Source of the DNA: Halothiobacillaceae bacterium
GTDB taxonomy: Bacteria; Pseudomonadota; Gammaproteobacteria; Halothiobacillales; Halothiobacillaceae
DNA: 35,770 bases
Direction: 5' to 3'
Assembly (NCBI GenBank): GCA_028696185.1
Contig: JAQVHL010000012.1
Span: forward strand, 19,924-55,693
Under the pieces are notes generated by a model that was not told the DNA's origin, did not search any database, and saw nothing but the letters and a program-made list of their open reading frames with translations. Of this stretch, positions 13,016 to 31,820 are shown one piece after another (position 1 is the first letter of the stretch; the number at the start of each line of letters is the position of its first letter). The translations under genes and the position numbers were made by a program.

Positions 13016-13338
13016 GCCCGAGTGGTGAAACAGGTAGACACAAGGGACTTGAATGTAATTTGAGCCCTCGCGGGGTAACCTGCGAGGTGAAGCCCGTCAA
13101 ATTCGGCGAACGCCCTGAAGGGCCGGTGCGATGCCGGCGCTTCGAGCCAACGCCGAGCCAAGCCCGGCAGCGCGTCGGGAAGGTGTAGAGAGCAGACGGC
13201 GGGCACCCCGGCTTGCGGGCCGGGGTGAAGGCGTGCTCCAGACCACGAACGCCGGTACATGACCAGCGGCGGCGAAAGCCGAAGTGGTACGAAAATCCCT
13301 CGACTTCGGTCGTGCCGGTTCGATCCCGGCCTCGGGCA
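13016..13338 (+). tRNA. tRNA-Leu(UAA), split gene with a group I intron
   Basis: Exons are 13016-13050 and 13292-13338. The spliced molecule folds fully. The acceptor stem is GCCCGAG/CTCGGGC with discriminator A at 13338. The D-stem is GTG/CAC. The anticodon stem AGGGA/TCCCT closes a 7-nt loop CTTAAAA with anticodon TAA. The long variable arm is CGAC-TTCG-GTCG, typical of class II leucine tRNA. The T-arm is GCCGG-TTCGATC-CCGGC. The mature length is 82 nt before CCA. The genome has CGA where CCA would be, so the tail must be added by the CCA enzyme. Unspliced, the anticodon loop is wrong, which confirms the intron limits. The next gene starts 57 nt downstream. Confidence 0.95.
13051..13291 (+). 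ncRNA. Group I intron (IC3-like) in the anticodon loop of tRNA-Leu(UAA)
   Basis: 241 nt inserted after U34 of the anticodon. P1 pairs exon CTT (13048-13050) with GAG (13062-13064), leaving a U-G pair at the 5' splice site. The intron ends in G (13291), the expected omega-G. Visible stems: P2 13066-13071/13082-13087; a P4-type pairing TCGGCG/CGCCGA at 13103-13108/13151-13156; P7 GAGCA/TGCTC at 13190-13194/13234-13238; and P8 at 13204-13212/13219-13227, nine perfect pairs. The core blocks TCAAATTCGGCGAA, CGCCGAGCCAAGC and GAAGGTGTAGAGA recall the Azoarcus tRNA-Ile intron. The site is the one used by cyanobacterial and plastid tRNA-Leu introns. It has no ORF, so it should self-splice but not home by its own endonuclease. 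Confidence 0.93.
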
Positions 13339-13395
13339 CGAATTACACAGTATTTCCGCGCCTCTGCGCGGTACGGGGAAGGAACTACCGGGATA

Positions 13396-27604: not shown

Positions 27605-29458
27605 ATGAATCGGGAGGACAACTCCTCGCTGAAGGTTTCCGGCAGGGCGCCGCTGGGGCGTAACGAGCGCGCGTTCATTGTCTTGCTGGCCTTGCTGCAG
27701 GGCTTGTTGCTCTATCTGGCCGAATACGGGCATGCCCATGCGATCTGGCCCTTGTCCGAGCTTTACGGTCAGGTCTGCTGGTACACCCTGGTGTTGACCG
27801 TGCCCACGCTGATGATGTTTTCCCTGCAGTCGCTGGGGCAGGGGCGTTTCTGGTGGCAGTCGGTCCTGCTGATCGTGGCTTATGTCGCTCTGGCGATTTG
27901 GGCGGCGCGCAATGCCACGGGGGCGCCCGGCCTTGAGGCGCACGCCGTATTGTTCCCCTTCGGGGCCAGCCTGGGGCTGGGCAGCTTTGTGTTGCTGCCT
28001 TATCTGCAGTGGCGGATGAGCGTTGAGGATGCCGGTGGGGGATGGCCGTGGAGGGCGTCTTATCCGGCGCTCTTCGACCATGCCTGGCAGAACACGCTCG
28101 CCCTGGCTTTCGCCGGAGTGACGGTGGGCCTGGGTTGGGCGGTTCTGATCCTGTGGGGAGAACTGTTCAAGCTGATCGACATCCGCTTTTTTCACGACCT
28201 GTTTCGTGAAAAGCCCTTTGTGTATCTGGCGACCGGCCTGTTCTTCGGGCTGGGTGTGCTGATCGGGCGTACCCAGGAAAAGCCGGTACGCATCGCGCGG
28301 CAGATTCTTTTTGCACTGTTTGCCGGTGTGTTGCCGGTTCTGTCCTTCATTGCCCTGCTGTTCATCGTCGCGCTGCCTTTTACCGGTCTGGCACCTCTGT
28401 GGCGTACCGGCCACGCCACGTTCATTCTGGCCAGCCTGCTGGTTTTCCAGATCGTGTTTCTCAATGCCGTGGTGCAGGACGGGCAGGGGCCTTCGCCCTA
28501 TCCGTCGCTTGTGCGGCGTATGGTGAGTGCGGCCATCCTGGTCAGCCCGCTGTATGCGGTTCTGGCCTTGTATGCCCTGGGACTGCGCATTGGTCAGTAT
28601 GGATGGACACCGGAGCGTTTGTGGGGCGTGCTGGCCATTCTGGGGCTGGGGGTACATGCGTTGGGCTATGCACTGGCCATCGTGCGGCGCTGGCGCGTGG
28701 CGTTCTGGACGGGCGAGGGCGCGTGGTTGCCGGGCCTGGCGCGGGTCAATGTATGGGCTTCCCTGGGGTTGGTCGGGCTGATTTTCCTGTTCGATTCACC
28801 GGTACTGGACCCGCATCGCATCAGTATCCAGAGCCAGCTGGCGCGCTTTGAAGCGGCACCGGCCGGGGAGCGGGAGAAGGCGCTTGATCTGGCCTATCTG
28901 CGGTTTTCGGCGGGGCGGCAGGGATACGAGGCCCTGCAGGCGTTGGCGGGGATGCCCCTGGTGCAGGAGGAGAGCGAACTGACCTCGCGGGTCAGGATGA
29001 TGCTTGAACGTACCGAGCGCTATCCCTCGCGGCAGGGTGCGGTTTTAACGGCGGAGCCTGCGAACTTGACTCAGGCGCAGGAGAGAATCCGTCTGGCGCC
29101 GGGGGCCGTGACACCGGAGGAGGATTTTTATGCCTTCCTGGTGACGCAAGCGAGCATGACACCGTGCCTGGCGCCCGGCAGCGACTGCCTGCTCTTGAGC
29201 CCGGATGTCGATGCAGACGGCGAGGCGGACATGCTTCTTTGCGATCTGAGCCGTGGCCATTGGGTTCGTTGCGAATTGAGCACGAGGGAGAACGGAGAAT
29301 GGCGCCGGGTCGGGCAGGCCGAGTTCGCGGCGTCTTCCCGTGCAGGCGGCGATGAGCTCCGTGAAGGAAGGCTGAACCTGGAGCCTCCCAGCCGCTGGTG
29401 GCGGCTGCGTTTAGGAGCGGACGAGCCGGTGGTCGAGATCAACGAGGCGCCGCGCTGA
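27605..29458 (+). CDS. DUF4153-type multi-pass membrane protein
   Basis: 617 residues with CAGGAGTCACGG before the ATG. The first ~390 residues contain about ten hydrophobic helices, with ALFDHAWQNTLALAFAGVTVGLGWAVLILW, DIRFFHDLF and FALPFTG-like blocks that I associate with DUF4153 proteins. The last ~220 residues are soluble, with a helical stretch and a C-terminal beta-rich domain that includes PGSDCLLLSPDVDADGEADM. Function unknown. The 3' end of this gene, from 29249, is duplicated at 30590 downstream of the fic insertion. This upstream copy keeps the full reading frame and stop, so it is the functional one. Confidence 0.82.
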   Translation: MNREDNSSLKVSGRAPLGRNERAFIVLLALLQGLLLYLAEYGHAHAIWPLSELYGQVCWYTLVLTVPTLMMFSLQSLGQGRFWWQSVLLIVAYVALAIWAARNATGAPGLEAHAVLFPFGASLGLGSFVLLPYLQWRMSVEDAGGGWPWRASYPALFDHAWQNTLALAFAGVTVGLGWAVLILWGELFKLIDIRFFHDLFREKPFVYLATGLFFGLGVLIGRTQEKPVRIARQILFALFAGVLPVLSFIALLFIVALPFTGLAPLWRTGHATFILASLLVFQIVFLNAVVQDGQGPSPYPSLVRRMVSAAILVSPLYAVLALYALGLRIGQYGWTPERLWGVLAILGLGVHALGYALAIVRRWRVAFWTGEGAWLPGLARVNVWASLGLVGLIFLFDSPVLDPHRISIQSQLARFEAAPAGEREKALDLAYLRFSAGRQGYEALQALAGMPLVQEESELTSRVRMMLERTERYPSRQGAVLTAEPANLTQAQERIRLAPGAVTPEEDFYAFLVTQASMTPCLAPGSDCLLLSPDVDADGEADMLLCDLSRGHWVRCELSTRENGEWRRVGQAEFAASSRAGGDELREGRLNLEPPSRWWRLRLGADEPVVEINEAPR

Positions 29459-29610
29459 TACGAAAAGCTCAGCGCCGCTCCGTCTCCAGGGTTTCCAGCA
29501 GGCTCAGATAGCTGTGCAGGCGGCGCAGGGAAAGCTTTCCCTGTTCGGCGGCGCGGCGTACCGCGCAGCCGGGTTCGTCCCGATGCTTGCAGTTGGCGAA
29601 ACGGCACTGG
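29249..29610. repeat. Direct repeat, copy 1 (DUF4153 3' end plus rsgA 3' end)
   Basis: 362 bp repeated at 30590-30951 with a constant offset of 1341 bp, no indels and only a few substitutions (I saw three). It covers the last ~70 codons of the DUF4153 gene, the 10-bp gap and the last ~47 codons of rsgA. The break at 29610/29611 falls inside rsgA. Confidence 0.95.
29469..29610 (-). pseudogene. rsgA 3' fragment (duplicated remnant)
   Basis: About 142 bp matching the end of rsgA (from the zinc-motif CRFANCKHRDEPGC region to the stop), without the rest of the gene. It abuts foreign sequence at 29611. It is a by-product of the duplication that brackets the fic locus and cannot encode a functional protein. 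Confidence 0.85.
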
Positions 29611-29734
29611 AGGTGGCGACGATTTGGCAGCATGCGCCATCCGGTGTCAGAACACGGTTTCGGGCTTTCTTCGGCGCGTAGTAACGGCGGTCAGCCCATG
29701 TATCCAGCGCAATGCACTTTTCCGCCGTGTTCAT
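29504..29734 (-). pseudogene. Truncated ORF translationally coupled to fic
   Basis: The ATG at 29734 overlaps the fic stop as ATGA and follows AAGGAGAG, an excellent ribosome binding site inside the fic tail. The first 41 codons (29734-29611, MNTAEKCIALDTWADRRYYA and on) are unique to the insert. At 29610 the frame enters the duplicated rsgA fragment out of register and runs on to 29504 by chance. The original gene was therefore cut at the repeat boundary. I do not recognise the remaining residues. It may once have encoded a partner of the Fic protein. Confidence 0.5.
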
Positions 29735-30531
29735 CTCTCCTTCTTGCGGTCGTGGTTTCGATCCCCTACGGGTGGATAAAGAATCGCATCTGCATCCGGG
29801 TGGCATCCCGCGAGGAAGGCCATCATCTCTGTGGCATCTTTCGAGAGATAGAAACGAACCATCTTCTCGTTGAACTCCTGCGCCTTGGCCGCTGGTACGC
29901 TAATAGCGTCAATGCCGTGTGACATGAGGACGCCGTTCATCATGAAACGTGACGTGCGCTTGTTGCCGTCGAAGAAAAACTGCTGCAAGGCGCCGAACAG
30001 AAAAAAGGCGGTCGCTCGCTCGAACGGCTCACATGCTTGCAGGGCTGAAACGCCTTCACTGAACACCCGGTTCAGTTCTGGTGCGCCGGGCAGCGTCGGC
30101 AGTGGGGTATAGCGCCCGTGTTCACCGAGCACCACATCCGGTGTGTAATTCTTCTCCTGACCTTCGCCACGGAACACGCCCCATTCCAGGGCTTCCTTGC
30201 GGGCGACGATGCCATTGAGTTCGATAAACACGCTTTTGGCGAGGGCGAATTGGCCGCTCTTGAGCATCACCAGCAGGCGCTTTGCGCTTTCCGCAAGGTT
30301 CAGAATTTGCTCCTGATCGGAAAGCTTCCGTCCGCCAACGGTCACGCCATCCAGCAGCGTTTTAACTTCGGGGAAGGTAAAGGGGTTGCCTTCCAGCACT
30401 GAGGCATCCCATACGAATTCAGGCAGCATCTTGTGGAGGCGGAAGCAGACCCGCTCAAGCGAGTGCGTTGGAACGGAAGTCGGCATTGCCGACCTGTCCC
30501 ACCGGAATCCAAGCGCATCAAAGAGAGTCAT
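29731..30531 (-). CDS. Fic-family protein with an altered active-site motif
   Basis: 266 residues from ATG 30531; a TTG six codons upstream is less likely. Fic proteins usually transfer AMP or another phosphate-linked group to a target protein. The Fic loop reads QFFFDGNKRTSR (184-195): the phosphate-binding DGNKR is kept, but the catalytic His of HxFx(D/E)GN is Gln184. An N-terminal WDASVLEGN (41-49) resembles the inhibitory (S/T)xxxE(G/N) helix of class II Fic proteins, with Glu47 present and the Ser/Thr position changed to Ala. The gene sits alone between two 362-bp direct repeats and against the direction of DUF4153, signs of acquisition. It may be an inactive or altered enzyme, or a subfamily with natural Gln. 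Confidence 0.85.
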   Translation of the reverse strand: MTLFDALGFRWDRSAMPTSVPTHSLERVCFRLHKMLPEFVWDASVLEGNPFTFPEVKTLLDGVTVGGRKLSDQEQILNLAESAKRLLVMLKSGQFALAKSVFIELNGIVARKEALEWGVFRGEGQEKNYTPDVVLGEHGRYTPLPTLPGAPELNRVFSEGVSALQACEPFERATAFFLFGALQQFFFDGNKRTSRFMMNGVLMSHGIDAISVPAAKAQEFNEKMVRFYLSKDATEMMAFLAGCHPDADAILYPPVGDRNHDRKKER

Positions 30532-30589
30532 GTCACAGCACCCAAGCAATTATTGAACACGGTTTTTCGGTATTAGAACATTGCATCCA

Positions 30590-30799
30590 AGCCGTGGCCA
30601 TTGGGTTCGTTGCGAATTGAGCACGAGGGAAAACGGAGAATGGCGCCGGGTCGGGCAGGCCGAGTTCGCGGCGTCTTCCCGTGCAGGCGGCGATGAGCTC
30701 CGTGAAGGAAGGCTGAACCTGGAGCCTCCCAGCCGCTGGTGGCGGCTGCGTTTAGGAGCGGACGAGCCGGTGGTCGAGATCAACGAGGCGCCGCGCTGA
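30590..30799 (+). pseudogene. DUF4153 gene 3' fragment (duplicated remnant)
   Basis: The last ~70 codons of the DUF4153 gene in the same frame and with the same stop. A fortuitous ATG at 30581 opens the frame, giving a possible 72-residue peptide, but the membrane domain is missing. It is a remnant, not a gene. Confidence 0.85.
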
Positions 30800-30951
30800 T
30801 ACGAAAAGCTCAGCGCCGCTCCGTCTCCAGGGTTTCCAGCAGGCTCAGATAGCTGTGCAGGCGGCGCAGGGATAGCTTTCCCTGTTCGGCGGCGTGGCGT
30901 ACCGCGCAGCCGGGTTCGTCCCGATGCTTGCAGTTGGCGAAACGGCACTGG
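30590..30951. repeat. Direct repeat, copy 2
   Basis: Second copy of the 362-bp block at 29249-29610. This copy contains the true end of intact rsgA and a headless 3' fragment of the DUF4153 gene. Confidence 0.95.
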
Positions 30952-31820
30952 TCGGCGTGTTCGCGGATATCGGTAAAGCCGCGAGCGAGATCGTCAGGGC
31001 TGATTTGCCAGAGGCCGAAATCGCGCACGCCGGGGGAGTCGATGAGATCGCCGCCGGCCGGCAGGTGATAGAGCGTGCTGGCACGCGTGGTGTGACGCCC
31101 TTCGCCGCTTTGGTCGGACAAGTCGCCGACGGCGGGCGCTGCCGCGGGAACCAGCTGCCGCACCAGGGAGGACTTGCCGACGCCCGACTGGCCGGCGAGC
31201 AGGCTGATATGCCCGGCCAGGCGTGCGCGCAGGGTGTCCAGGCCGTCATCCATGCTTGGGTCGGGTCTTTCTGCGAGGGCGTGGGTTTCGATACGCTCTA
31301 TGCCCAGCGCGGCAAACTCGTCGAGAAGGCGGCGACAGGCTCCGGTTTCCGGCAGATCGGTCTTGTTCAGCACCAGAATGGGTGTGGCGGGCAGGGCCAG
31401 GGTGGCCACGATGTAGCGGTCGATCAGGGTCGGGTTGGGCTCCGGCCGGGGGGCAACGACAATCAGGACCTGATCGATATTGGCAGCCACGCTTTTCGGC
31501 TTGCCGTAGGGGTCGGGCCGTTGCAGGAGTGAGATACGCGGGCGAACGGCAACGATGGCGCCGTTGCCATGGGCTTCCTCGACCCACAGCACCCGGTCGC
31601 CGGTCACGACAGTGCCCAGGGTTCGGCGCGCGACACAGCGCAGGGTTTCACCGGTCTGGGCATCCTCGACCAGGAGCTCCCGCCCGTGATGGGAAATGAC
31701 CTGCCCGTCGCGCCCGGCCGGTTCGCCGGCGCCGGTTTCACCGGCTTTTTTTTCAAGCAGCTCGTGCTGCCGGTCGCGGAAGCGGCGCTGATGTTGCTCG
31801 GTGTGACGGAAGCGGGCCAT
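30810..31820 (-). CDS. rsgA: Small ribosomal subunit biogenesis GTPase RsgA
   Basis: 336 residues from ATG 31820. The open frame extends 11 codons further into mgtE, but MARFRHTEQHQRRF is a typical RsgA start. An OB-fold domain (about 40-105) is followed by the circularly permuted GTPase with G4 NKTD, G1 GQSGVGKSS and G3 DSPGVRDFG in that order. The C-terminal zinc motif is CRFANCKHRDEPGC. RsgA checks late 30S subunit maturation. The gene starts four bases after the mgtE stop. Its 3' end lies in repeat copy 2 and appears intact despite the duplication. Confidence 0.96.
   Translation of the reverse strand: MARFRHTEQHQRRFRDRQHELLEKKAGETGAGEPAGRDGQVISHHGRELLVEDAQTGETLRCVARRTLGTVVTGDRVLWVEEAHGNGAIVAVRPRISLLQRPDPYGKPKSVAANIDQVLIVVAPRPEPNPTLIDRYIVATLALPATPILVLNKTDLPETGACRRLLDEFAALGIERIETHALAERPDPSMDDGLDTLRARLAGHISLLAGQSGVGKSSLVRQLVPAAAPAVGDLSDQSGEGRHTTRASTLYHLPAGGDLIDSPGVRDFGLWQISPDDLARGFTDIREHADQCRFANCKHRDEPGCAVRHAAEQGKLSLRRLHSYLSLLETLETERR

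Follow-up and report, generated by a model that had tools for sequence, protein, structure and literature searches.

A tRNA-Leu(UAA) gene that is split within its anticodon raises three questions: whether the inserted sequence is a working ribozyme, to which intron lineage it belongs, and how the interrupted gene came to its present genome. We address these questions for a gene at positions 13016-13338 of a 35,770-nucleotide stretch of DNA from a Halothiobacillaceae bacterium (the window); the gene and all of its parts described below lie on the forward strand. It is interrupted after U34 by a 241-nucleotide group I intron (13051-13291). The genome is of gammaproteobacterial type, as the initial annotation of this DNA had proposed. 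Comparison of related sequences leads us to read the insertion in tRNA-Leu(UAA) as a working, self-splicing intron of the Leu lineage, with a probability of about 0.9. Its family is widespread and poorly annotated, and the intron is neither a new nor a hybrid type.

The gene escapes an ordinary tRNA search, as had been anticipated. In default mode, where introns are disallowed, ARAGORN calls no tRNA in the window; with introns permitted, it places tRNA-Leu(taa) at 13016-13339 and assigns it a 241-nucleotide intron. Excision of 13051-13291 yields a regular class II cloverleaf of 82 nucleotides with anticodon UAA, and both the identity and the intron boundaries given in the initial annotation are borne out. 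The 5' exon (13016-13050), delimited by ARAGORN and by the spliced cloverleaf, runs from G1 to U34; the 3' exon (13292-13338), delimited by ARAGORN and by the sequence itself, runs from A35 to the discriminator base A73. CCA is not encoded, and CGAATT comes next. The insertion point is, as noted from the outset, that of the tRNA-Leu introns of cyanobacteria and plastids. No promoter-like or terminator-like match was found near the gene. The three genes adjoining the locus encode PP2C, LysM/TPR, and MASE1-GGDEF-EAL proteins, and a search for mobile elements among the flanking genes gave no clear sign of any. In a separate part of the window, repeated ORF translations (PFRQLQASGRTRLRGTPRRRTGK...; SPTASIGTNPAARYA...) occur at 29128-29806 and 30550-31249, on either side of an ORF (29731-30549) that by eye is Fic-type-like and is flanked by the duplicated end of a neighbouring GTPase gene.

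The intron carries a complete P1-P9 core. P1 (13048-13064) pairs exon bases C32-U33-U34 with the guide triplet GAG (13062-13064) and sets a U-G wobble (U13050-G13062) at the 5' splice site; its assignment draws on structure counts and on the way the guide triplet tracks the exon across hosts. P2 (13067-13086) is closed by a GUAA tetraloop and shows both-side changes in six of its eight pairs. The 5' strand of P3 (13092-13098) meets its 3' strand at 13198-13204, with both-side changes in four of seven pairs. P4 joins 13104-13108 to 13151-13155, is 100% paired in 25 sequences, and encloses the P5 hairpin, the whole spanning 13104-13155. The expected guanosine-binding site is P7, whose 5' strand GAGCA (13190-13194) faces UGCUC (13234-13238); it is 100% paired, and three of five pairs have changed on both sides. 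Structure counts also support P6/P6a (13158-13183), the 3' strands of P3 and P7, and P9 (13242-13288), in which 13242-13246 pair with 13284-13288 around an inner hairpin with a GAAA tetraloop (13271-13280). In the P8 hairpin (13205-13226), the outer three pairs are well supported; its inner pairs, like one end of P1, differ among relatives. The final base at the 3' splice site is G13291, as expected. No homing endonuclease gene lies within the intron, which at 241 nucleotides is too short to hold one.

Compensatory change among 25 related introns supports this fold. The core helices P3-P8, including the P3/P7 pseudoknot, are present and maintained by such changes, which recur across relatives in P3, P4, and P7. 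Chance is excluded because 118 cells have changed on both sides, whereas shuffles give 36.7; the pairs changed on both sides number 27, a figure matched in none of 500 shuffles. Cells are paired in 85.8% of cases, against 76.6% after shuffling and no more than 49% once the structure is shifted along the alignment. Since the fold was worked out on the window sequence, this measure is tilted towards the unshifted position, and the double changes carry more weight. Judged by these alignments, the ribozyme core is under selection, and the intron most likely self-splices. The Rfam Intron_gpI model (RF00028), suggested earlier as a check on the group I assignment, matches 13041-13241 over its full model length with 38.6 bits (E 3.2e-8) and does not reach its gathering score of 50. 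We regard the initial reading as a group I intron as supported. Our own covariance model R1 gives 186 bits, a score to be read in light of the intron's membership of the R1 training set. Three other proteobacterial introns (L271, L278, and L281) likewise score under the RF00028 gathering score; a tRNA-Arg(UCU) intron (L046) scores above it, at 59.1.

These features describe a small, IC3-like group I intron and suggest how it would leave the transcript. The RNA would fold into the P1-P9 ribozyme; a guanosine bound in P7 would attack after U34, held in P1 by GAG as the U-G wobble; and the freed U34 would in turn attack after the terminal G13291, so that U34 and A35 become linked and the intron is set free. 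A CCA-adding enzyme would presumably supply CCA to the spliced tRNA. We infer the splicing itself, the CCA addition, and the whole-locus transfer considered below.

The lineage of the intron is revealed by its near relatives. Trees built on 115 to 127 introns place it with the Leu introns of Stutzerimonas, Achromobacter, Azonexus, and Rhodanobacter, and the last tree adds to this group three Leu(UAA) introns and one Leu(CAA) intron of the same class; with unsettled bootstraps and some long deeper branches, we rely on near placement only. Identity over aligned positions to the Leu introns of the four named genera is 76-78%, with 78% to that of Stutzerimonas nosocomialis (L168). The S. nosocomialis gene and those of Achromobacter sp. 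RTa (L146), Azonexus (L125), and Rhodanobacter (L182) share with the window gene the subfamily, the insertion site, the core words, and a GCCCGAG acceptor stem; they differ in encoding CCA and in having introns of 221-231 nucleotides. By these sequence relationships, the window intron falls in a subfamily of tRNA-Leu(UAA) introns that spans beta- and gammaproteobacteria. The cyanobacterial and plastid tRNA-Leu(UAA) intron agrees with it in gene, insertion after U34, and class of guide triplet, but the sampled cyanobacterial introns, which represent this type here in place of plastid ones, are at most 54% identical and form a separate clade. The initial annotation had likened the core to that of the Azoarcus tRNA-Ile intron. 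The Azoarcus-type tRNA-Ile(CAU) intron is also a small group I intron (IC3) in a tRNA anticodon loop, and the movement of such an intron into tRNA-Leu(UAA) would account for the small size, the GC-rich core, and some core blocks that look similar by eye; moreover, Ile2 introns are common within the same class. Yet this type resides in another tRNA, is inserted after the anticodon CAU, and forms a separate clade. Measured against Ile2 introns of the same type, which stand in for the Azoarcus sequence itself, the best identity of the window intron is 53%, against 78% to Leu introns; a tree that forces it together with Ile2 introns is 99 log-likelihood units worse (p-AU 0.014); and the guide is GTG in 21 of 21 Ile2 introns, whereas the window has GAG, like 79 of 82 Leu introns. 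The likeness to Azoarcus thus gives way to membership of the Leu group, and we find descent from the tRNA-Ile(CAU) lineage barely credible. A hybrid intron, with a Leu-type P1 and an Azoarcus-type core, was also considered and dropped, since the tree and the identity values are against it.

Does the gene serve the cell, and how did it arrive? The window gene is the sole tRNA-Leu(UAA) found: its DNA has one match in the 2.9-Mb genome (G000), and neither a genome-wide DNA match nor the 41 RF00005 matches by which the genome's tRNAs were gathered turned up a second. A second intact gene had been named beforehand as the sign of a pseudogene, and none was found genome-wide in this 112-contig draft. 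The remaining leucine tRNAs are TAG, CAA, CAG, and GAG, all intact, which leaves the window tRNA as the sole reader of UUA found. UUA is in use: 17 window genes contain it 14 times among 8712 codons. As the only such tRNA in a genome that uses the codon, the gene is probably functional, and it is probably essential. Encoded CCA is present in all 38 other credible tRNA genes listed (a tally that leaves aside one doubtful Val prediction) and absent from this one alone. The missing CCA could be a mark of decay, and a native intronless copy could be hidden in a gap of the draft, making the window gene a degenerating pseudogene. Against this stand the regular spliced cloverleaf, the intact ribozyme core with its compensated pairs, the lack of any other UAA gene in an assembly of estimated 100% completeness, and the UUA codons in use; decay is in our view highly unlikely. 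The wider order bears on the question of arrival. No R1 match occurs in 25 of 26 order relatives, and the remaining one (G020, of the same family) has its group I intron in tRNA-Arg(UCU) (L046:381-693) and none in tRNA-Leu(UAA); in genera g3 and g4 of the order, tRNA-Leu(UAA) is intronless. The acceptor strand GCCCGAG is common to the window tRNA and its intron-bearing relatives, and under a strict pattern a GCCCGAG exon with an uninterrupted anticodon loop occurs in 1 of 369 genomes. Because several order relatives carry an intronless tRNA-Leu(UAA), the window tRNA lacks encoded CCA, and its acceptor stem is shared with intron-bearing relatives, we lean towards the joint arrival of exons and intron by horizontal transfer of the whole gene. 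Whole-locus transfer is unproven because the pattern for intronless genes was strict and the exons are 88% identical to a same-order intronless gene. This closeness suits an alternative to the transfer part only, in which the intron was ancestral in the order and lost in sister genera, and CCA was lost independently here: the window exons are about equally near the g3 intronless genes (up to 88% identity) and intron-bearing ones (up to 90%). The distribution among the 26 order relatives speaks against such vertical descent, as does the location of the closest introns in other families, including Betaproteobacteria, and we regard it as rather doubtful.

The initial annotation had also raised the possibility that one intron lineage moved between tRNA genes. 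For the window intron no such move is needed, and this part of the idea falls away; among its relatives, movement from tRNA to tRNA is visible (Ser UGA, Arg UCU). Guide triplets follow the host: GAG is found in 5 of 5 Arg(UCU) introns, as in most Leu introns, and GGG in 2 of 2 Arg(CCU) introns. Beside the window subfamily, with support 100/84, lies a group I intron inserted after U34 of a tRNA-Ser(UGA) gene (L281:1446-1752, reverse strand), whose exon reads CUU ahead of the splice site, as does that of the window. This placement fits movement between tRNAs with a shared triplet; it is one case, in a relative and not in the window gene. The intron closest to the window's in the last tree (L278:550-868, reverse strand) is hosted by tRNA-Leu(CAA), where C34 at the 5' splice site lies opposite the guide G, giving C-G in place of U-G. 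A wider scenario can be put forward tentatively: tRNA-Leu(UAA) genes of this subfamily may pass as whole cassettes from one beta- or gammaproteobacterium to another and displace the resident gene, the incoming gene here now being the sole UAA reader and still without encoded CCA, and the intron may also hop among tRNAs with CUU at 32-34 (Leu UAA, Ser UGA, Arg UCU).

Introns of this kind are spread across bacteria. A degenerate DNA pattern (a GACTT exon followed by the P3-P6 core), scanned over one genome per species in 84,980 species, matched at least 119 stretches. Among the 80 matches listed, nearly all of those with readable junctions are tRNA-Leu(UAA) genes split after U34, and the taxa among the matches listed are Cyanobacteriota, Alpha-, Beta-, and Gammaproteobacteria, Bacteroidota, and Acidobacteriota. 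In the GTDB sense, Gammaproteobacteria include Betaproteobacteria. Within this class, RF00028 matches 55 of 369 genomes; its scan lost the window intron under stricter filters, so we built R1 from Leu introns, which matches 74 of the 369. Matches were assigned to a tRNA only in part, and the host genes range over Leu(UAA), Ile(CAU), Arg(CCU), Arg(UCU), Ser(UGA), and further tRNAs. With that many genomes matching and hosts so varied, tRNA introns are not sparse in Gammaproteobacteria, contrary to what the initial annotation had supposed. The literature partly bears this out and holds precedents. Group I introns in tRNA genes have been described in cyanobacteria and in alpha- and betaproteobacteria (PMC4033280), and in Beggiatoa and Thiomargarita the tRNA-Leu-TAA and tRNA-Arg-TCT genes are split by putative group I introns (PMC4853749). 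These Beggiatoaceae (Beggiatoa BOGUAY and Thiomargarita nelsonii) agree with the window in gene, intron class, and placement in Gammaproteobacteria, and their interrupted tRNA-Arg(UCU) resembles that of the same-family relative G020; Thiotrichaceae Leu introns form a different subgroup from the window intron. The tRNA-Leu(UAA) introns of gammaproteobacteria are therefore known already; the window intron is ordinary in kind, and its distribution is of moderate interest.

Annotation of such loci is error-prone. With introns permitted, ARAGORN often assigns the wrong tRNA: Ile2 is labelled Gln(ctg), and Leu(UAA) comes out as Phe, Ser, Ala, or Stop (L047, L091, L092, L131, L171, L271, and others). 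We corrected labels via splice junctions where possible; automatic tallies of intron hosts would mislead because of these wrong identities. Five tRNA-Leu(UAA) introns (L103, L123, L127, L162, and L174) are about 690 nucleotides long, and their longest stop-free stretches, of 154-198 codons, are on the antisense strand; endonuclease genes or other inserts are possible explanations.

A related intron also occurs on plasmids, and a similar one is called in a phage. Plasmid pCTX-M3 (NC_004464.2, near 61829-62076; L271:2995-3295) carries a tRNA-Leu(UAA) gene that is missing from the annotation and looks complete, with a 213-nucleotide group I intron. It adjoins aac(3)-IId and an AAA ATPase gene, which we take to be tmrB-like. 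Near-identical copies are carried by 1280 PLSDB plasmids, and 635 of 5426 E. coli genomes contain them as well. The plasmid intron groups with that of Rhodovulum steppense (89% identity), and its exons are of alphaproteobacterial type, which together suggest where the aac(3)-IId resistance module may have originated. In Gordonia phage Daredevil (NC_048021.1; L273:1871-2182), ARAGORN calls a tRNA-Lys(ttt) with a 238-nucleotide intron similar to window positions 13153-13290. The phage introns known at the time of one review were all in protein genes (PMC3984707).

A probably essential tRNA gene can thus be invisible to default ARAGORN while its intron stays under the Rfam gathering score. About one-fifth of the sampled Gammaproteobacteria (GTDB sense) have introns matching R1, and such hidden genes should be borne in mind whenever tRNAs are listed as missing from a draft genome. 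Because guide triplet and exon match so closely from host to host, one can ask which tRNA genes are open to an intron. The intron-bearing tRNA beside aac(3)-IId on E. coli resistance plasmids offers a ready system for seeking evidence of splicing and a clue to the origin of the module, and this plasmid-borne relative may be more deserving of study than the window gene. What matters more widely is how broad and how under-annotated this intron family is.
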